Shown here: piece after piece, positions 51,123 through 61,998 of the stretch | Position numbering within the stretch: position 1 is the first letter of the stretch | Layout: every line of letters starts with the position of its first letter | Program-made: the position numbers and the translations under genes | Source: an uncultured Granulosicoccaceae bacterium | GTDB lineage: Bacteria; Pseudomonadota; Gammaproteobacteria; Granulosicoccales; Granulosicoccaceae | Direction of reading: 5' to 3' | Length of the DNA stretch: 64,000 bases | Assembly: GCA_937922015.1 (NCBI GenBank) | Contig: CAKZVB010000041.1 | Location: 1-64,000 of the forward strand | Notes under the pieces: model-generated | What the model was told of the DNA's origin: nothing | The model's input: only the letters and a program-made list of their open reading frames with translations | Database searches by the model: none

Positions 51123-52355
51123 ATGAGCAAAAAAACCATTCTGATCGTCGGTACATACGATACCAAAGACGACGAACTCAATTATATGGCAACTCGCATC
51201 AGCGCCATGGGTGGCAACGTGCTGTCGATGGACGTCAGCGTGCTGGGTGACCCGACAAGCCCGTGCAATATCAGCAAACACGAGGTAGCCGAAGCGGCCG
51301 ACTCATCAATTCAGGCGGCCATAGACAGCGGCGATGAAAACACCGCCATGCAAATTATGGCCACCGGTGCTGCAGCCCTCGCCAGTAGATTACACGACAA
51401 GGGAAAATTCGATGGCGTAGTCATTCTGGGTGGCACCATGGGTACCGATCTGGCCCTGGATGTTTGTCAGGCACTGCCACTGGGAGTCCCTAAATACATC
51501 GTATCAACCGTGTCATTCTCACCGCTGATTCCACCTGATCGGCTGTCAGCAGACATACAGATGATCTTGTGGGCCGGCGGCCTGTACGGACTTAATTCAA
51601 TTTGTAAATCCTCGTTAAGCCAGGCGGCAGGTGCGGTGCTTGGCGCGGCCACCGCGGTAGAGCCACCCGGCAACGACAAACCATTAATCGGCATGACCTC
51701 GCTTGGCAGCTCATGTCTTAGCTACATGAAACTTATCAAACCGGAGCTCGAAGCTCGCGGTTATGAAGTGGCCATCTTTCATGCCACCGGTATGGGTGGC
51801 ATGGCCTATGAGAGCATCGCGAAAAATGGCGGCTTTTGTTGTGTGATGGACTTTGCCCTGCCGGAACTGGGCAACCTGTTAGCCGGCTCGGTAGTTCACG
51901 GCGGCGCAGATCGAATGCTAAATGCCGGCGCCTCCGGTATTCCACAACTCATCGCGCCCGGCTGCCTTGATCTTATCGACTTTGCCGGCTGGCAGGAGAT
52001 CCCGGACAAATATTCAGACCGACCATTCCATGCGCACAATCGACTAATCAAATCGTCGGCACTGAATGAACAGGAACGCCGGCAAACCGCACGTGAAATA
52101 GCAGATCGTCTGCAACAATCTGCGGCACCTGCCCACGTCATACTGCCCAATGGTGGCATTGAAGAATGGGACAGACCAGGTGACGTCGCCCACGACCCAG
52201 ACGGGCTGGCCGCTTTTCTCGATGAGATGCGCAGCAGCATAAAACCCCCACTACAGTTAACTGAAATAGACGCGCACATTAACGATCAGCTATTCGCAGA
52301 CACCGCGCTGGAAATATTCGATCAATGGGTCGCTGATGGCACAGTAAAAACGTGA
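51123..52355 (+). CDS. Tm-1-like ATP-binding domain protein (UPF0261)
   Basis: ILIVGTYDTKDDELNYMATRISAMGGNVLSMDVSVLG...VILGGTMGTDLALDVCQALPLGVPKYIVSTVSFSPLIPPD...LIGMTSLGSSCLSYM...VFHATGMGGMAYE-like (IFHATGMGGMAYES)...HVILPNGGIEEWDRPG. Confidence 0.88.
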   Translation: MSKKTILIVGTYDTKDDELNYMATRISAMGGNVLSMDVSVLGDPTSPCNISKHEVAEAADSSIQAAIDSGDENTAMQIMATGAAALASRLHDKGKFDGVVILGGTMGTDLALDVCQALPLGVPKYIVSTVSFSPLIPPDRLSADIQMILWAGGLYGLNSICKSSLSQAAGAVLGAATAVEPPGNDKPLIGMTSLGSSCLSYMKLIKPELEARGYEVAIFHATGMGGMAYESIAKNGGFCCVMDFALPELGNLLAGSVVHGGADRMLNAGASGIPQLIAPGCLDLIDFAGWQEIPDKYSDRPFHAHNRLIKSSALNEQERRQTAREIADRLQQSAAPAHVILPNGGIEEWDRPGDVAHDPDGLAAFLDEMRSSIKPPLQLTEIDAHINDQLFADTALEIFDQWVADGTVKT

Positions 52356-54403
52356 GCCGCTACGACCTACTGTTTGAACCCGTAAAAATCGGACCGGTCA
52401 CCGCACCAAACCGATTCTATGCCGTGCCGCATGCCACCGGCCACGGATGGTCCCAGCCGAATGGTGCTATCGCATTAAGAGCGACAAAAGCACAGGGCGG
52501 CTGGGGAGTTGTGGCCGCACAAATGCAGGAAATATCCGCCGACAGCGATCTCGCCAGTCACCCGATGGACCGAATATGGGATGACACCGATACGGCAGCA
52601 CACGTGGCCCAGGTACAGGCAATCAAATCTCACGGCGCACTCGCCGCAATAGAACTGGCGCATGGTGGCATGCGCTCGCGCAACCTGACCACCGGGTTGC
52701 CAGTGCGCGGACCCAGTCACTTACCCATACTAAGACCGGAACTGCCAATACAGGCACGTGCCATGAACAAAGACGACATAAAAAATTTCCGCCAGTCGCA
52801 TCTTGCCGCGGCTGGTCGCGCCATCGCCGCCGGCTATGATATTTTGTATGTCTACGCCGCACACGATCTCTCACTGCTCAGTCACTTTTTATCGCGACGC
52901 ACTAATCACCGCACAGACCAATACGGCGGATCACTCGGCAACCGCTTACGCCTGCTTCGCGAAGTACTCGAAGACACACTCGAGCTCGCCAATAAAAACA
53001 ACAGGGCAGTCGCTCTGCGCTTTAGTGTTGCAGAGCCAGACAGCGCAATCGGCCTTAGACAGGACGGGGAAGGCCGCGAAGTCGTAGAAGCACTGGCAGA
53101 ATTACCTGATCTCTGGGATGTTAATATATCCGGCTGGCCACAAGACAGCGCCACCTCCAGGTTTACCGAAGAGGGATATCAACTGAGCTTTACCGACTTC
53201 GTAAAATCAGTGACCACCAAACCAGTAGTCGGTGTTGGCCGCTTCACCTCCCCTGACTTAATGGTGTCGATGGTAAAGAACGGCCAACTGGATCTTATCG
53301 GTGCGGCACGCCCGTCAATCGCCGATCCATTTCTACCGGAAAAGATAAAACAGGATCGTCTCGAAGACATTCGTGAATGCATAGGCTGCAATATATGCGT
53401 AAGCATGGATGGTTACGGTGTACCTCTGCGTTGCACTCAAAACCCTACCATTGCAGAAGAATGGCGCCGCAACTGGCACCCTGAACATATACCACCGTCC
53501 AGCAACAAACAGTCCCATTTGATCATCGGAGCAGGTCCCGCCGGCCTGGAGTGCGCCTGGACCCTGCTGCGCGCAGGCCACAAAGTAACCATTGCCGATG
53601 CAGCCGATTTTGCCGGTGGCAGAGTCACCCGCGAAGCCGCCCTGCCCGGCCTGAACACATGGACACGGGTGCGCGACTACCGCGTGGCGCAAATTCAAAA
53701 GAGCAATCTGGCGGAACTCTATCTGTCGAGTGAAATGACGGTTGACAACCTCTGCGAATTTGACGCAGATCATATTGTGATTGCCACCGGCTCACACTGG
53801 CGGGGTGATGGCATTGGCTCATGCAGCATGCAGAAAATCGACTTCAACACCGATACCGTGCTGTCACCGGATGACATCATGAATGGCCATATTTTTGATC
53901 AACAGAACACTGACATAGTGGTCTACGACGATGATCACTTTTACATGGCCAGTGTGATCGCAGAAAAGCTGGCCGGCCTCGGCCATAACATAACCTACGT
54001 CACTCCTGCATCTACAGTGGCAAGCTGGACTGATTACACACTCGAGCAAAGCCGGATTATTCAGCGCATGAATGAACTGGCGATCAATATCAAAGTAAAT
54101 ACAGCACTTGAGGTATCGGGAGAATTTAAATCCACCCTCACCGGTCAGCCAATCACCATAGATCACACAGCCTTGATTATGGTCGGTGCAAAATCCCCTG
54201 ACGACACTCTGTTTCTTGCCGCCAGCGCCGACCCGCGGCTAAAGAATGTACATATCGCAGGTGACTGCCAGTCTCCGGGCATCATTCAGGCTGCGGTATT
54301 GTCGGGCCACACCTGCGCACGGCAGATTCTCTCCGGCAGCTCGGCACCGCTGCCATTTAAACGAGAATCTTCAATAGTAATAAGGCAGGATCAGCGCCCT
54401 TAA
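52352..54403 (+). CDS. TMADH/DMADH/histamine dehydrogenase-type FMN/[4Fe-4S] oxidoreductase
   Basis: OYE-type barrel then CIGCNICVSMDGYGVPLRCTQNPTIAEEWRRNWHPE (complete CxxCxxCx11C) and GAGPAGLECAWTLLRAGHKVTIAD dinucleotide-binding domain. GTG start overlapping the upstream stop (GTGA). Confidence 0.9.
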   Translation: MSRYDLLFEPVKIGPVTAPNRFYAVPHATGHGWSQPNGAIALRATKAQGGWGVVAAQMQEISADSDLASHPMDRIWDDTDTAAHVAQVQAIKSHGALAAIELAHGGMRSRNLTTGLPVRGPSHLPILRPELPIQARAMNKDDIKNFRQSHLAAAGRAIAAGYDILYVYAAHDLSLLSHFLSRRTNHRTDQYGGSLGNRLRLLREVLEDTLELANKNNRAVALRFSVAEPDSAIGLRQDGEGREVVEALAELPDLWDVNISGWPQDSATSRFTEEGYQLSFTDFVKSVTTKPVVGVGRFTSPDLMVSMVKNGQLDLIGAARPSIADPFLPEKIKQDRLEDIRECIGCNICVSMDGYGVPLRCTQNPTIAEEWRRNWHPEHIPPSSNKQSHLIIGAGPAGLECAWTLLRAGHKVTIADAADFAGGRVTREAALPGLNTWTRVRDYRVAQIQKSNLAELYLSSEMTVDNLCEFDADHIVIATGSHWRGDGIGSCSMQKIDFNTDTVLSPDDIMNGHIFDQQNTDIVVYDDDHFYMASVIAEKLAGLGHNITYVTPASTVASWTDYTLEQSRIIQRMNELAINIKVNTALEVSGEFKSTLTGQPITIDHTALIMVGAKSPDDTLFLAASADPRLKNVHIAGDCQSPGIIQAAVLSGHTCARQILSGSSAPLPFKRESSIVIRQDQRP

Positions 54404-54534
54404 ATTAACATAACTTATGGCGGCTGCATCAGTCCGAAAACAGGTCGCTGTGGATTGACAATGATGTTTCGATTTCAGGTATTTTGATTCTACTAAATCA
54501 ACGAACACCAGCAGTTTGTAAAAAGGATAAAGCC

Positions 54535-56580
54535 GTGTCTAAAGACCCGCTGTTACAACCGTTTCAACTAAAACACCTGACACTTCGAAACCGCATCATG
54601 ACCACCAGCCATGAGCCGGCCTATCCTCAGGACGGCATGCCGAAAGAGCGCTACACCGCCTACCATGCAGAGCGTGCAAAAGCAGGCGTAGCGTTAACCA
54701 TGACCGCCGGTTCAGCTGCTGTCAGCAAAGACAGCCCGCCCGTGTTCAACAACATTCTCGCCTACAAGGATGAAGTCGTACCGTGGATAAAAAACCTCAC
54801 TGACAGCTGCCATGACCATGGCTGTGCGGTGATGATCCAGCTCACCCATCTGGGCAGACGAACCAACTGGAATAAGGGCGACTGGCTGCCGTCTGTGTCA
54901 TCGTCCAAACACCGCGAACCCGCTCACCGGTCATTTCCCAAACTGGTTGAAGACTGGGACATCGAACGCATCATCACAGACTTTGCCGATGCCGCTGAAC
55001 GCATGCAGGCCGGTGGTATGGACGGCATAGAGCTTCAGGTGTACGGCCATCTGCTCGATCAGTTCTGGTCACCATTAACCAATGATCTGACCGGACCCTA
55101 CGGCGCAGACACGCTCGACAACCGCTTGCGAATGCCCATGGATGTTATTGATGCGATTCGCAAACGAGTTGGCAATGAGTTTATTATCGGCCTGCGTTAC
55201 ACGGCCGATGAAGTACAACAAGGCGGTATTACCGCAGCAGACGGCATCGAGATATCCAAACGCCTGGCCGACAGTGGCAAGGTTGATTTCCTTAACGTGA
55301 TACGCGGTCGCATACACACCGACCCCGCCATGACAGACGTCATCCCGGTGCAGGGCATGCCTGCAGCACCGCACCTGGATTTTGCCGGCGCCGTTAAAAA
55401 GGCCACAGGCATGCCCACTTTCCATGCGGCAAAAATCCCCGATGTAGCAACCGCCAGACACGCTGTGTCTGCCGGACTACTCGATATGGTCGGTATGACT
55501 CGCGCGCACATGGCCGACCCGCATGTAGTGCGTAAAATAATCGAGCGACGTGAACATGATATAAGGCCATGTGTTGGTGCCACCTACTGCCTTGACCGGA
55601 TCTATCAGGCCGGTGAAGCGCTCTGTATACACAACGCCGCCACTGGTCGCGAACTATCAATGCCACATGATATCCCGCCCGCTAAAATCAAAAAGAAAGT
55701 AGTCGTCATTGGCGCCGGCCCCGGAGGAATGGAAGCAGCGAGAGTAGCGGCAGAACGCGGCCACGATGTCGTCGTGTTTGAAGCCGCACAGGATGCCGGC
55801 GGCCAAATACGCCTGACCGCACAATCTCCGCGCCGCCGCGAAATGATCTCGATCATCGACTGGCGGGTGGCCCAGTGCGAGGCCCATGGCGTGGTCTTCC
55901 ATTTTAATACCTGGGCCGAGGTTCAGGACATTACCCCGCTGAATCCCGACGTTGTCATTGTGGCAACTGGTGGGCTGCCGAATACCGAACTCTTCGAAAC
56001 CAAAGGACAGCAGGCAGAAGTTGTTACCACCTGGGACATCATCGCAGGGGATGTAAAGCCTGCCGATAATATATTGATCTATGATGAGTCCGGAGACCAT
56101 CCTGCTCTGCAAGCCGCGGAGGTTGCCGCAAACAGTGGAGCGACCGTAGAAATCATGACCCCGGACCGCGTCTTTGCACCGGATGTCATGGCCATGAATC
56201 TGGTGCCTTACATGCGCACACTGCAAGACAAAGACGTAACCTTTACTGTCACCCGGCGACTACTGGATGTAGCACGCACAGGCAACAAACTGACAGCGAC
56301 GATCGGCACTGACTACAGCGATCACACCCATCAGGCCAAATATGATCAGGTGATCGTAAACTACGGCACGCTGCCATTGGATGAGCTCTACTTTGATCTA
56401 AAACCACTGTCATCCAATGGCGGTGCCGTGGATCAGGATGCGCTAATTAACGGTAATCCACAGAACATCGTGCGTAACAAAAAGGGGGATTTTCAGCTGT
56501 TTCGCATTGGCGATGCGGTATCTGCCAGAAATACACACGCCGCAATTTACGACGCATTGCGGCTGTTAAAAGATATCTGA
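54535..56580 (+). CDS. NADH:flavin oxidoreductase, TMADH-like / N-methylproline demethylase-like, with incomplete FeS motif
   Basis: SKDPLLQPFQLKHLTLRNRIMTTSHEPAYPQDGMPKERYTAYHAERAKAGVALTMT...CVGATYCLDRIYQAGEALCIHN...VVIGAGPGGMEAARVAAERGHDVVVFEAA. The track ORF opens at 54484; a GTG at 54535 preceded by aaaaggataaa matches the family start. Confidence 0.88.
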   Translation: MSKDPLLQPFQLKHLTLRNRIMTTSHEPAYPQDGMPKERYTAYHAERAKAGVALTMTAGSAAVSKDSPPVFNNILAYKDEVVPWIKNLTDSCHDHGCAVMIQLTHLGRRTNWNKGDWLPSVSSSKHREPAHRSFPKLVEDWDIERIITDFADAAERMQAGGMDGIELQVYGHLLDQFWSPLTNDLTGPYGADTLDNRLRMPMDVIDAIRKRVGNEFIIGLRYTADEVQQGGITAADGIEISKRLADSGKVDFLNVIRGRIHTDPAMTDVIPVQGMPAAPHLDFAGAVKKATGMPTFHAAKIPDVATARHAVSAGLLDMVGMTRAHMADPHVVRKIIERREHDIRPCVGATYCLDRIYQAGEALCIHNAATGRELSMPHDIPPAKIKKKVVVIGAGPGGMEAARVAAERGHDVVVFEAAQDAGGQIRLTAQSPRRREMISIIDWRVAQCEAHGVVFHFNTWAEVQDITPLNPDVVIVATGGLPNTELFETKGQQAEVVTTWDIIAGDVKPADNILIYDESGDHPALQAAEVAANSGATVEIMTPDRVFAPDVMAMNLVPYMRTLQDKDVTFTVTRRLLDVARTGNKLTATIGTDYSDHTHQAKYDQVIVNYGTLPLDELYFDLKPLSSNGGAVDQDALINGNPQNIVRNKKGDFQLFRIGDAVSARNTHAAIYDALRLLKDI

Positions 56581-56594
56581 AAAGGCGTGAACAA

Positions 56595-57842
56595 TCAGGC
56601 TGCCGCCTCATACTCTGCTGACGCCAGCTTAATGCAGCAGGCAACAAGCTCCATGGCCTGCTGGACTTCCTCAAGCGGCGGCCTGGTCGGGGCTAATCTG
56701 ATATTTCGATTTTCAGGATCTACCCCGTCCGGGTAGGTAGCACCGGTCGGTGTCAGTGCCAGGCCGGCTTCTTTGGCCAGTTCAACGACCCTGCTCGCGA
56801 CTGGCAGTGCTGTATCAAGACTCACAAAATATCCACCGCGCGGTACCGTCCAGCTTGCCACGCCTAAGTTGCCAAGCTCGGTGTTTAATACATCCTGCAC
56901 GCAGTCGAATTTCGGCTTGAGGATTTTTGCATGATCACTCATCAGGCCTTTCAGCCCACCGGGATATTTACGCAGAAACAGCACATGTCGCCACTGCTCT
57001 GCCTTATTAGGGCCGATCGTTTGCGTGTTCAGTGCCGACGACCAAAAATTTATATTAGCCTCACACATCCCTGCCAGCCCAAGCCCGCCACTGGCAAACG
57101 TCACCTTTGACGTTGACCCGAACAGCAGCACCCTGTTTTCAGTTCCGGCATCCTTCGCTAACTGCAACAGGTTTGCTGCAGGCTCCGGATTATCGACCAG
57201 ATGGTGTACAGAGTAGGCATCGTCTGCGAAAATCGTAAAGTCACTTGCCGCCGTCGGTATACTGACCAATCGCCGGGCGGTATCGGCTGACAGACTGTCA
57301 CCGGTAGGGTTGCTGTAAGTGGGCACAAAATAGATGCCTTTTACCGACGTATCGTTGCTGACCAATGCCTCAACTGCATCCATATCGGGGCCATTGGCTG
57401 TCATTGGCACACTAAGCAATTCGAATCCCAGCGCTTTCGCCAGTGTAAAATGACGGTCATAGCCCGGCACTGTGACGATCAGCTTTGGCGACTGATTAAC
57501 CCAGCCCTGCGCACTGCCGAGCACGCCTTTGAGCAGTGCCCAGGAAAACATACGCCCCATCAGATCCAGACTTGAGTTATTACTGATGATGACTTCATCC
57601 GGTGCTACAGAGAGTTGTTCGCAGAAGATTTCGCGCGCCTCTTTCAACCCCAGCACGCCACCGGGGTAGTTACGAATATCAACTCCGTTATCTGTCATAT
57701 AGTTAGACGCATCAACCTCAGACAGAATCGGTAAACTTAAATCAAAATTAGCATCAGCAGGCTGCCCCCGCTCCATATTTAAAGACGCCCCCGCACTTTT
57801 GTATTTCTCATACTGTGCTCTTAGGGAATTCAGGTCAGCCAT
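56595..57842 (-). CDS. PLP-dependent aminotransferase, putative type Ic aspartate aminotransferase family
   Basis: MERGQPADANFDLSLPIL...DIRNYPGGVLGLKEAREIFCEQLSVAPDEVIISNNSSLDLMGRMFSWAL...VPTYSNPTGDSLS...DDAYSVHHL...LLFGSTSKVTFASGGLGL. Confidence 0.85.
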   Translation of the reverse strand: MADLNSLRAQYEKYKSAGASLNMERGQPADANFDLSLPILSEVDASNYMTDNGVDIRNYPGGVLGLKEAREIFCEQLSVAPDEVIISNNSSLDLMGRMFSWALLKGVLGSAQGWVNQSPKLIVTVPGYDRHFTLAKALGFELLSVPMTANGPDMDAVEALVSNDTSVKGIYFVPTYSNPTGDSLSADTARRLVSIPTAASDFTIFADDAYSVHHLVDNPEPAANLLQLAKDAGTENRVLLFGSTSKVTFASGGLGLAGMCEANINFWSSALNTQTIGPNKAEQWRHVLFLRKYPGGLKGLMSDHAKILKPKFDCVQDVLNTELGNLGVASWTVPRGGYFVSLDTALPVASRVVELAKEAGLALTPTGATYPDGVDPENRNIRLAPTRPPLEEVQQAMELVACCIKLASAEYEAAA

Positions 57843-57951
57843 CGTTTATCCGCGATTAAAAATTAGAGGGGCATACTTTACCAGTATTTTGCAGTGTCGG
57901 AACACCAAAGCCGGTCACTGAAGCGCTGAAACCAATAACGACGCTCCGGAC

Positions 57952-59097
57952 CTATCCGACACCCTCGACGGCAGCAAGTCCCTGCGCCAGTTTGCGTATC
58001 AAATAATCGTGGAAGTTTTTTACTGAGCCCTCAAGATCTGCCGGCGCTAGCTGCCCGCCCTGATAAAAGGAAGATCTCAAGCCTCGCTGTAAGCACTTGA
58101 GAATGTTGTGGTCCTCGCGGTTTATCTCCTGCCATTTCTTTATTCGCTGATCCTTTTGCTCTTCGTCGAGGTCTTTTTCAAAGCTCGACAAGCCCCATTT
58201 GACTGATACCTTGTCTACACCGTCCGGTTGCATCGACAGATAGACCAGCGTATCCGGTGAGACAGAAACCACCACAGAGGGATAAATGCAGAACAACCGG
58301 GACTGACGTCTCTCATCTGCAGTCAACAGTGCAGAGTGATTCAGGCGCTCCGGTGCTGCCAACGCATAATTAGCGATATAGCCCGTGTAGGCACCATTAC
58401 TGGACATTGTCTGGCAAAGATTGGTCGGGGTCAGCGGTCGCAGCGTCTGCGGATGCACCACAGACAGATGATACCCGTCCATAAAATTCTCAATCAGAGA
58501 CTTCCAGTTGCAGTCCCACGTTTCATGGAAACAACTGATATGATGCATGCCCTCCATCTGGTAGTGCTCGATAGCCTCCTGCAATTCGCTAAGCTGACTC
58601 TCAAGACTTTCAGCCGCCTCATTGAGGGTGGCAAAAATAAACCCGCCCCAGCACTCAGACCGAATCACCGGCAACCGGCAACCTTTAAGTGACGCCTTGT
58701 CTTCCATAAGCGGCGCGCTGCGAAGCTTACCATCCAGCGCATAGGTCCAGGCGTGGTAGGGACAAACAAATTGACGGGTGTTGCCCGCACCGTTAGCCAC
58801 CTGCATGGCCCGGTGCTGACAGACATTGGCATACACGGACACTGTTGACGGATCAGACCTCACCACCACCAACGGCTCACTCAGCAAACTACTGGTGAAA
58901 TAATCTCCCACAGCAGGTATTTCATCTGCCCGACCAAGACACATCCAGCTGTCGCGAAAAATGAGTTGCTCTTCAAGTTGCAGATAGCCTTCATCTATAT
59001 AACAGTCCGACGGCAACGCCCTGTTTTTGCCCAGACAATTTTCTACAATGGTTTCAACTACGCTTTGACTGTCCGGCCTTGAGTTTATAGCTGTCAT
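57952..59097 (-). CDS. Rieske non-heme iron oxygenase alpha subunit (GbcA/CntA/stachydrine demethylase-like)
   Basis: Rieske motif CQHRAMQVANGAGNTRQFVCPYHAWTYALDGKL and mononuclear iron motif NFMDGYHLSVVHPQTL. Confidence 0.9.
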   Translation of the reverse strand: MTAINSRPDSQSVVETIVENCLGKNRALPSDCYIDEGYLQLEEQLIFRDSWMCLGRADEIPAVGDYFTSSLLSEPLVVVRSDPSTVSVYANVCQHRAMQVANGAGNTRQFVCPYHAWTYALDGKLRSAPLMEDKASLKGCRLPVIRSECWGGFIFATLNEAAESLESQLSELQEAIEHYQMEGMHHISCFHETWDCNWKSLIENFMDGYHLSVVHPQTLRPLTPTNLCQTMSSNGAYTGYIANYALAAPERLNHSALLTADERRQSRLFCIYPSVVVSVSPDTLVYLSMQPDGVDKVSVKWGLSSFEKDLDEEQKDQRIKKWQEINREDHNILKCLQRGLRSSFYQGGQLAPADLEGSVKNFHDYLIRKLAQGLAAVEGVG

Positions 59098-59181
59098 GAT
59101 CTACCGAAAACTCTGTTAATTAATCCACTATGCCTGCAGAGATACAAAAGAACTATTTTCCAGAAATATTTCCCGCTTAAA

Positions 59182-59784
59182 CTAGCCTGTCATACCGATA
59201 TAGCCAACCTGGTTTTTTACAGTGCCGAGCCAGCGCACAATACCGGGAAATCGATCAAGATCAATGCCCGCCTCATCTGCAACATGCGTATAGGCATACA
59301 AGCTGATGTCTGCTATTGAGTAGCTTTCACCGACCAGAAAGTCGTGTTCAGAAAGTCGCTTTTCCATCACGCCCAGTGCACGGTAACTGCCCTCTTCTTT
59401 TGCGTTGTATTCCACCAGCCGATCGGCCGGCAGGTTGAGGAATTTTTTTATAAACCGGCGCACCGCGATAGTCGGCTCGTGATTGTATTGCTCAAAAAAT
59501 TGCCACTCAAGCACTCGCGTGTGCAATAATTTTTCGGTGGGAACAAGGTCAGTGCCAGCCGCGAAATAATGCAAAACAGCGTTTGACTGCGTGAGCACTG
59601 TACCGTCGTCCAGAATCACTGCAGGGATCTGCCCGGCCGGATTCATCGATAAAAACTGCTCAGTTCTGGTCTCGCCCTGCGTGACCAGAATTTCACGCCA
59701 CTCATGTGCGATATCAAGCTGCGCAAACAGCAGAGCAATCTTGTAGCAGTTTCCGGACTGCATATCTCCGTAGACAATTGTCAT
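59182..59784 (-). CDS. Glutathione S-transferase family protein
   Basis: YGDMQSGNCYKIALLFAQLDIAHEWREI, MNPAGQIPAVILDDGTVLTQSNAVLHYFA, FLVGESYSIADISLYAYTHVADEAGIDL. Confidence 0.9.
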   Translation of the reverse strand: MTIVYGDMQSGNCYKIALLFAQLDIAHEWREILVTQGETRTEQFLSMNPAGQIPAVILDDGTVLTQSNAVLHYFAAGTDLVPTEKLLHTRVLEWQFFEQYNHEPTIAVRRFIKKFLNLPADRLVEYNAKEEGSYRALGVMEKRLSEHDFLVGESYSIADISLYAYTHVADEAGIDLDRFPGIVRWLGTVKNQVGYIGMTG

Positions 59785-59823
59785 CGTATATTTTCCATAA
59801 ATGCAGTATTCAACAGACTGAAA

Positions 59824-60690
59824 TCAGACGCTCAGTCTACTCACTTTTACACTCACATATAGCACTGTCACCAGCACCAGAGCGCCACCGACAAGCACAT
59901 TTACGTCAGGGTATTGATAATATAACGCCGCGGCTAGCACCACACCGTAAACCGGCTCCAGTCCGGCCGCGATAAGGCTTGCCACTGCCGCGTTCAGCTC
60001 ACGCATCGAGTTTATGAACAAGGTTTGCGCCAGTGCTGTACAAACGGTACCCAGAAAAATCAATTGCAGCCACTGCCCCCCGGAAATTTCCGGCAGATTG
60101 CCAAAAACAAACGGTAAAATCAAACAACAGGCGACGGCATTTTGAACCAGCGCCAATGACGTCGCACTATGGGTGGCGGTCAGCTTGCGATTCAGCAACT
60201 GCAGAAAAGCAAACGTCAATGCACTCACCAGCCCCCACAACACACCGGCACCGAAACGAATTTCACCTGCGTACACACCGGTCATTATTACTATGCCGAG
60301 CACGACAATGATCGCGGGTACAAGCGACCCTAAATCAAACCGCTCACGAAACAGCAAGGGCTCCAGCAACGCGATAAATATCTGGCAGGTTGAGAACATA
60401 ATTAACCCGACAGCCACCGTGGATACCTTAATCGAGGTGAAAAAGCAGATCCAGTGCAGACACAACAGCAGCCCGCTGAATAAAACGGTCACGTCTACAC
60501 CAGAGCTTAGTAGCGACGTATTTCTTTGCGTAAGAAATTTCCAGAAAAGCAATAGAGCGATGGTCGCAAACAGGGTGCGACCAAAGGTAATAAGCACAGG
60601 ATCAAGACCGGTCGACAGAACAAAGATCCCGGCAAGGCCGAAAAAAAAGGTGGCAACGTGCACCTGAAAAAGCGAAGAAAATGCTGGCAA
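59824..60690 (-). CDS. EamA/DMT superfamily transporter
   Basis: About 10 hydrophobic helices in two repeats; FINSMRELNAAVASLIAAGLEPVYGVVLAAALYYQYPDVNVLVGGALVLVTVL is a typical EamA C-terminus. Confidence 0.85.
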   Translation of the reverse strand: MPAFSSLFQVHVATFFFGLAGIFVLSTGLDPVLITFGRTLFATIALLLFWKFLTQRNTSLLSSGVDVTVLFSGLLLCLHWICFFTSIKVSTVAVGLIMFSTCQIFIALLEPLLFRERFDLGSLVPAIIVVLGIVIMTGVYAGEIRFGAGVLWGLVSALTFAFLQLLNRKLTATHSATSLALVQNAVACCLILPFVFGNLPEISGGQWLQLIFLGTVCTALAQTLFINSMRELNAAVASLIAAGLEPVYGVVLAAALYYQYPDVNVLVGGALVLVTVLYVSVKVSRLSV

Positions 60691-60779: not shown

Positions 60780-61760
60780 TCAGTTAGCAGCCATCACGTT
60801 AATGGTTTTGCTGCTTTTCTTAATCGTCCAGCTAACACCACCATAGATTCCTGTATTGGTGTTTTCCTCAAACAATGGACTATTACTGTTTTTAGCCCCG
60901 TCGTGCAACGACAGTCTAACGCCTAAAAAGCCACTGACATCTTTATTGAATTGATGCCCGATACCCAACGACAACCCGGACCCCGTGTAACCGGCTTTCG
61001 CATCATAGGCTGCGCGCTGATCAGTAGCAAAAGCCGGATCAACCTGGTAGAAATAATCCATTAGCTGTTCACCCACCCAATAGGCACTGGCTGAAGCCGA
61101 TACAAATGAACGCGCGCCGAATAATCCGTCTCGCCGGTATTGCAATTCTGTTCCCAGAACAGGGCCACGCGATCGAATAGATTTTAAATCAGTAGAGACG
61201 GCTAATCGGAGCGCCGTAGACCAGTTAATCCGCCCGAACCTCTTCACGCCATCACTGCTTTGTTCAGACTCACTCTCCCACAGGCGAACATCGATCTTGG
61301 GGCCGAGCTCGAACAGATAGTCAAGGTCAGGCATACCCTGTCTGAGCGGTGTGTCTTCAGAATCAGCATTTAGAGAACCGCTAATAGACACATCAACAGT
61401 GACACGTTGATTCTGCAGTGCGATAAGCTTCAGACCCCCATCCTGCAAACGCACTTTGTCGCCACGGTAAATAAACCAGGGCAGCAGGAATCGACGTTCA
61501 CTGGAAACCGCAGATGCCGGATAGGCAGGCACACTCAGACCGGCTGCGGCCAGTCCAAACTCCCACTGCGGCTTAGCTTCAGTCTTAAAGACAGTGGTGC
61601 CCTCCACAGCGGTTTGGGCCGCTGCCTGCTGGTGTTGCTGTGCCATCGCCGGCACGGCCACCAGCACCGGGCAAAGCAGCAATACCATGGAAAATAGCGA
61701 AGACCGATGCGAGGTAAAACTAGTGTGCGGTGGAATCAAGATGCTTGTGCCCGTGTTCAT
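60780..61760 (-). CDS. MipA/OmpV family outer membrane protein
   Basis: WEFGLAAAGLSVPAYPASAVSSERRFLLPWFIYRGDKVRLQDGGLKLIALQNQRVTVDVSISGSLNADSEDTPLRQGMPDLDYLFELGPKIDVRLW. Likely start ATG 61760 (track 61802). Confidence 0.88.
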   Translation of the reverse strand: MNTGTSILIPPHTSFTSHRSSLFSMVLLLCPVLVAVPAMAQQHQQAAAQTAVEGTTVFKTEAKPQWEFGLAAAGLSVPAYPASAVSSERRFLLPWFIYRGDKVRLQDGGLKLIALQNQRVTVDVSISGSLNADSEDTPLRQGMPDLDYLFELGPKIDVRLWESESEQSSDGVKRFGRINWSTALRLAVSTDLKSIRSRGPVLGTELQYRRDGLFGARSFVSASASAYWVGEQLMDYFYQVDPAFATDQRAAYDAKAGYTGSGLSLGIGHQFNKDVSGFLGVRLSLHDGAKNSNSPLFEENTNTGIYGGVSWTIKKSSKTINVMAAN

Positions 61761-61998
61761 ATTGAGTTGATTCAGGTCGCCACAAAAATACCTGACAACC
61801 ACATCCTGATGAGTGGATCAAATAGCGCGTGGAGTGTGAGAGAGCTTGTCTGGCCTGCCAGTTACCTGAGAAATATACGACTGTGGTGTTTGACCATCAG
61901 AATTCATCATAATTCAGCCTGTTTTATCAGACCATTACCATGAGCCTGCCACGTTAAGAGACTTTAATAGCGATATCCCCTTCACCGGACTATCGCTC

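Follow-up and report, generated by a model that had tools for sequence, protein, structure and literature searches.

The 64,000-nt stretch analysed here (the window) corresponds to contig C41 in a metagenome-assembled genome (MAG) of an uncultured Granulosicoccaceae bacterium (5.03 Mb, 332 contigs, 80.6% complete), and our analysis concerns seven genes at positions 51123-60690. These encode a UPF0261 protein, two flavoproteins related to trimethylamine dehydrogenase (TMADH; FMN1 and FMN2), an aminotransferase, a Rieske oxygenase, a glutathione S-transferase (GST) and an EamA transporter. The locus is probably a mosaic in which three units with separate functions were joined in this lineage: UPF0261 with FMN1 (unit A), FMN2 (unit B) and the operon around the Rieske gene (unit C). 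The substrates and reactions suggested for each unit are our interpretation of observed gene identities, coupling, conservation, linkage and residues.

The comparison set was the family Granulosicoccaceae, with 48 searchable genomes, 47 of which are relatives of the window genome (the named ones are Granulosicoccaceae/'Chromatiales' MAGs). The order-level set consisted of the identical 48 genomes, and widening the search to the order added nothing. We mapped all window proteins onto the neighborhoods of the UPF0261, FMN2 and Rieske genes in the relatives and compared gene presence with simple Fisher tests, which treat genomes that are related. UPF0261, FMN1, FMN2 and the Rieske operon were found all together only in the window genome. 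The presence of UPF0261 was correlated with that of FMN1 (18/30 vs. 1/17, p = 4e-4). FMN2 was uncorrelated with the Rieske-GST pair (found in 3 of the 11 relatives with the pair vs. 17 of the 36 without; odds ratio 0.42, p = 0.31) and with FMN1 (6/19 with FMN1 vs. 14/28 without; p = 0.24), and the odds ratio between UPF0261 and FMN2 was 1.1. The mapped neighborhoods of UPF0261-FMN1 contained no Rieske, FMN2, window-type aminotransferase or EamA gene, and those of the Rieske gene contained no UPF0261 or FMN1. In most relatives the FMN2 orthologs (70-89% identity) stand alone. The preliminary description had proposed one co-inherited betaine demethylation pathway and had tied this proposal to co-conservation of the genes; the neighborhoods show that the genes are not co-conserved, and for the locus as a whole the proposal fails this test. 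One observation weighs against a complete separation of the units: FMN2 lies less than 10 kb from the Rieske operon in two relatives only (G018 and G010), so that units B and C may derive from a common older neighborhood.

The UPF0261 protein of unit A presents both the N- and C-terminal domains (PF06792 and PF23189, above cut-offs) and matches the NCBIfam model NF002676 with 623 bits (cut-off 556). What is known of this family comes mainly from Tm-1, a virus-resistance protein of tomato, and our search of the literature on UPF0261 found no enzymatic function. The gene overlaps FMN1 by 4 bases (GTG start at 52352, stop ending at 52355), an arrangement that, judging from the sequence, is translational coupling. 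FMN1 orthologs (at least 53% identity, full length) adjoin UPF0261 in 16 of 18 relatives, the exceptions being G001, where UPF0261 is located on another contig, and G032. A second, distant UPF0261 of 724 aa is encoded on contig C87 of the window genome (L062:11404-13578); here the UPF0261 part follows an ABC-transporter ATPase domain within a fusion protein, and the next gene resembles, by eye, that of a TIM-barrel (TBST) protein (L062:10569-11399). TBST proteins are the usual partners of Tm-1-like proteins.

Both flavoproteins display FMN and FAD/NAD domains in the architecture of TMADH and dienoyl-CoA reductase. Among solved structures, FMN1 matched histamine dehydrogenase best (PDB 3k30, E = 7.6e-187), followed by PDB 6l6j and then TMADH (E = 6.5e-137). 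Like histamine dehydrogenase (3k30, 6de6) and TMADH (1djn), with which it is homologous over the full length, it retains the four cysteines of the 4Fe-4S cluster (CIGCNIC...C) and the equivalents of TMADH W264/D267 and Y-x-x-H. Its Asp353 aligns with Asp358 of 3k30, which we take to be a substrate-pocket residue of histamine dehydrogenase. FMN1 differs from both enzymes by its coupling to UPF0261, and from TMADH by an Ala (as in PDB 6l6j) at the position of Cys30, which forms the 6-S-cysteinyl FMN, by Met57 in place of Tyr60 and by the absence of a Trp at 355. For all UPF0261-linked FMN1 proteins, as far as their N-termini were read, the residue at the Cys30 position is Ala. Because of these replacements, the aromatic bowl that holds trimethylammonium in TMADH is mostly absent. 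By its residues, FMN1 is thus classified within the TMADH/histamine dehydrogenase family but not as a trimethylamine dehydrogenase proper.

In the relatives, UPF0261-FMN1 is flanked or followed by genes for a class III aminotransferase, an MBL-fold hydrolase, the tricarboxylate-type transporter TctC-TctB-TctA, IclR and aldehyde dehydrogenases. Sinorhizobium fredii and Yoonia plasmids carry the same gene set (69-76% identity for UPF0261 and 53-54% for FMN1) near genes for homogentisate dioxygenase and maleylacetoacetate isomerase; the S. fredii cluster additionally contains EtfAB, PurU and an FAD/GcvT oxidoreductase. In Ruegeria pomeroyi, a kinase, an enzyme of class III aminotransferase fold and an aldehyde dehydrogenase precede UPF0261. 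HpaE, HpaD and HpaH, all scoring above curated cut-offs, are encoded directly downstream of UPF0261 in one relative (G024), and HpaD near it in another (G038). Overall, no more than 25 kb separates hpaD from UPF0261 in 8 of 26 genomes and from the class III aminotransferase of the cluster in 12 of 27, while uniform placement predicts approximately 0.3 in each case. Contig C27 of the window genome itself carries MBL, aminotransferase, TctB-A-C, a glutamine-synthetase-like gene and a MarR regulator, followed by hpaF, hpaE, hpaD and hpaG; hpaD scored above its cut-off and the other genes were recognized by eye or by alignment with locus L058. The glutamine-synthetase-like gene (L265:6833-8107, by eye), possibly a gamma-glutamyl-amine synthetase, is located between TctC and the hpa-like genes. 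Both in the family and on C27, the cluster of UPF0261, aminotransferase and Tct genes is linked to hpaD, E, F and G/H of the 4-hydroxyphenylacetate/homoprotocatechuate (hpa) pathway; the upstream amine genes seen here (UPF0261, FMN1, class III aminotransferase and TctABC) do not belong to the classical hpa operon.

Given these cluster neighbors, our best guess is that unit A serves the catabolism of arylethylamines. We infer that UPF0261-FMN1 in the window forms the core, now displaced, of a cluster that degrades aromatic (arylethyl-type) amines and whose other members reside on C27. TctABC would import the aromatic amine and FMN1, as a dehydrogenase linked to electron-transfer flavoprotein and carrying non-covalent FMN, would oxidize the C-N bond, after which an aldehyde dehydrogenase would yield the arylacetate. 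The class III aminotransferase, the kinase/lyase and UPF0261 might act on variants or intermediates, and the ring would be degraded via homoprotocatechuate (hpaD-E-F-G, on C27 here) or homogentisate (S. fredii). The more specific proposal, that UPF0261 is a dedicated part of such a pathway, working with a histamine dehydrogenase-like enzyme with non-covalent FMN and feeding homoprotocatechuate or homogentisate ring cleavage, is put forward tentatively. Several points speak against the arylethylamine reading: a second cationic group would fit the histamine dehydrogenase-like Asp353 better than a phenol ring does, the linkage to hpa genes is missing in many relatives, though their contigs are short, and the genomes are related, so that the linkage counts are not independent.

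Alternatively, unit A could handle N-methylated arylethylamines of the hordenine, N-methyltyramine or synephrine type, FMN1 and a GcvT-type oxidase removing the methyl groups before deamination feeds hpa or homogentisate ring cleavage. The gene order in S. fredii (PurU, EtfAB, FAD/GcvT oxidoreductase, aldehyde dehydrogenase, UPF0261, FMN1 and then the homogentisate genes) is consistent with this idea, as is the membership of FMN1 in the TMADH/histamine dehydrogenase family. However, the Granulosicoccaceae clusters have neither the FAD/GcvT gene nor PurU beside UPF0261, and the loss of most of the aromatic bowl in FMN1 (Met57 for Tyr60 and the Asp353 region for Trp355) argues in the same direction. 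We consider this version rather unlikely.

Unit B starts 131 bases after FMN1, most likely at the GTG at 54535, a choice based on the upstream aaaaagga and on the alignment with the N-terminus of StcD/HpbA; a start at TTG 54484 was rejected in its favor. FMN2 is 70% identical, over 98% of the query, to a Paracoccus protein named HpbA (N-methyl-L-proline N-demethylase) whose gene sits in a complete hpb cluster. It is also 69% identical to the product of the only matching place on pSymB of Sinorhizobium meliloti. Since pSymB carries stcD, which encodes N-methylproline demethylase (PMC12239276), this sole match is presumably stcD itself. FMN2 and the members of the StcD/HpbA clade examined at 18 further loci share the motif C-x-x-A-x-x-C-x11-C: compared with TMADH and dienoyl-CoA reductase, whose 4Fe-4S motif has four cysteines, an Ala replaces the second Cys, and one cluster ligand is missing or replaced. 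Enoate and dienoyl-CoA reductases gave the best solved-structure matches to FMN2, and this assignment was rejected once the named StcD/HpbA relatives were found.

With approximately 70% identity over the full length and the same CxxAxxC as the proteins of stachydrine (proline betaine) degradation in S. meliloti and Paracoccus, FMN2 is an StcD/HpbA ortholog, a known type of enzyme. By orthology, it would oxidatively demethylate N-methyl-L-proline to proline. Two points temper this assignment: the hpbA name is an NCBI (PGAP) annotation, and the identity of the pSymB match with stcD is deduced from the replicon. The hpb cluster further comprises TetR, a cupin, the epimerase HpbD, a Rieske/reductase pair and a betaine ABC transporter, none of which adjoins FMN2. 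Indeed, no proline-betaine genes were found near FMN2 in the window, and the gene is usually alone in the family; the S. meliloti pSymB gene is likewise not within a full hpb cluster.

Unit C is an uncharacterized operon of known families. The order aminotransferase-Rieske-GST-EamA-MipA is conserved in the genus. In 11 relatives GST directly precedes the Rieske gene, and the aminotransferase, EamA and MipA are often present as well. The Rieske protein contains Rieske and Ring_hydroxyl_A domains, and its iron sites are invariant in our alignment (C93/H95 and C112/H115 of the CxH...CxxH motif; H210, H215 and D329). Its best match among solved structures is CntA. It thus resembles the group V oxygenases of quaternary ammonium compounds (CntA, GbcA and Stc2) in its Rieske and 2-His-1-Asp iron sites, but it forms its own clade and differs at their signature residues. 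Compared with CntA, Asp207 stands in place of the bridging Glu205, the Cys pair is replaced by Gly208 and Leu211, and Phe205 occupies the position of Tyr203. The substitutions E205D/Q were reported to inactivate CntA (PMC7948474), a Cys-x-x-Cys stands beside the mononuclear iron in some members of group V (CntA 206/209 and Stc2 202/205; PMC10952381), and Tyr203 of CntA binds the ammonium group by a cation-pi interaction (PMC7948474, PMC10952381). The bridging Asp was present in all 15 close relatives examined (at least 50% identity), and Glu only in two distant homologs (39%). Moreover, the GbcA model NF058607 (cut-off 670) matched the N-terminal half only, with 142.6 bits, against 489 bits over the full length for the Rieske protein of the Paracoccus pantotrophus hpb cluster. 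By these signature residues, the window protein is classified as an oxygenase alpha subunit outside group V. A role of the Rieske protein in NdmE/GST-type methylxanthine demethylation was likewise rejected, the methylxanthine demethylases matching at only 1e-6.

Another Rieske protein, encoded near a contig end on C77 of the window genome (L255:8878-10032), displays the bridging Glu and the Cys pair (NFLECYHC). Although it also scores far below the GbcA cut-off, it is a candidate for the role of quaternary-ammonium oxygenase in the organism. Beyond the family, genes homologous to the window Rieske are usually paired in tandem with a second Rieske gene bearing the bridging Glu; in the genus this second gene is absent, and GST and the aminotransferase are found in its place. 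Such tandems are widespread in Rhodobacteraceae and Rhizobiaceae (15 loci, with Asp and Glu bridging in the copies checked), often with RidA-like, DUF1028-like, ArgE-like, flavin monooxygenase-like and LysR genes, these neighbors being identified by eye.

The aminotransferase of the window belongs to aspartate aminotransferase type Ic (NF053594, 493 bits; cut-off 435). In some relatives it is replaced by a class V protein similar to BhcA, the L-aspartate-glyoxylate aminotransferase, which we did not assign as BhcA (353 bits; cut-off 650). The alternation of two unrelated folds beside the Rieske gene represents a non-orthologous displacement and offers a clue to the reaction: aspartate is the amino donor of both best-matching families, which points to a keto acid, perhaps glyoxylate, as the product of the Rieske step. 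The oxygenase would attack its substrate, and the keto-acid product would then be aminated with aspartate.

Alternatively, unit C might degrade a sulfur-containing amino compound or a glutathione adduct, which GST would conjugate or process, the Rieske protein oxidize and the aspartate aminotransferase deaminate, a TauE-type exporter of the relatives expelling the sulfur product. The association of GST with the Rieske gene in the 11 relatives and the TauE/SafE genes directly after the aminotransferase in relatives agree with this scheme, but the window has no TauE gene, the block of TauE, phosphoglycerate mutase and CoA-transferase is also part of the general synteny of the genus, and no sulfonate-specific gene was found. 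This scheme seems improbable.

Least probable is one stepwise pathway, with the Rieske protein opening or demethylating a quaternary ammonium compound, the two flavoproteins stripping the methyl groups that are left and the aminotransferase and EamA dealing with the product. Adjacency in the window genome, the orthology of FMN2 to N-methylproline demethylase, the proximity in G018 and G010 and the one-carbon/N-demethylation parts of the S. fredii cluster (FAD/GcvT demethylase-like protein, EtfAB and PurU) speak for it. Against it stand the missing co-conservation, the convergent transcription of the two blocks, the lack of the group V residues in the window Rieske, the presence of another Rieske with NFLECYHC on C77 and the fact that the Rieske reductase, betaine transporter and epimerase of a real hpb cluster were not found nearby. 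From the preliminary description, the single pathway, the Rieske protein as a quaternary-amine demethylase and the unsupported participation of GST and EamA in a betaine route therefore fall away. The identities of all seven genes stand, confirmed by their open reading frames and by domain and family profiles, as do the coupling of UPF0261 to FMN1, the relatedness of FMN1 to TMADH, the N-methylproline demethylase type of FMN2, already a known enzyme, and the lack of a dedicated regulator inside the stretch.

All seven open reading frames are present at the coordinates and on the strands listed in Table 1, the four-gene minus-strand block facing the plus-strand block of UPF0261, FMN1 and FMN2. 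A promoter scan performed at chance level (8 found vs. 10.8 expected) and was not used.

Table 1. Genes of the three proposed units, with positions in the window.
Unit	Feature	Position	Strand	Basis
A	UPF0261/Tm-1-like protein, PRK02399.1-4 subfamily, 410 aa	51123..52355	+	Domain and NCBIfam profiles, conserved adjacency to FMN1
A	FMN1, histamine-dehydrogenase/TMADH-like flavoprotein, 683 aa	52352..54403	+	PDB matches, residue comparison
B	FMN2, StcD/HpbA ortholog, predicted N-methyl-L-proline N-demethylase, 681 aa	54535..56580	+	Identity to Paracoccus HpbA (70%) and S. meliloti pSymB gene (69%)
C	Aspartate aminotransferase type Ic (pyridoxal phosphate)	56595..57842	-	NF053594 above cut-off
C	Rieske non-heme iron oxygenase alpha subunit, bridging Asp207	57952..59097	-	Domains, signature residues
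C	Glutathione S-transferase (GST)	59182..59784	-	Domain; upstream of Rieske gene in 11 relatives
C	EamA/DMT transporter	59824..60690	-	Domain, conserved gene order
C	MipA/OmpV family outer-membrane protein, beyond the seven-gene locus	60780..61802	-	Conserved gene order

These results indicate that the Rieske proteins of GST-Rieske-aminotransferase operons should not be annotated as betaine demethylases on the basis of overall similarity to CntA or GbcA. What is new is a metabolic context for UPF0261, a family of unknown function, in a cluster common to gamma- and alphaproteobacteria that can be tested. If UPF0261 does take part in arylethylamine catabolism, this would constitute a metabolic role for the Tm-1-like family.

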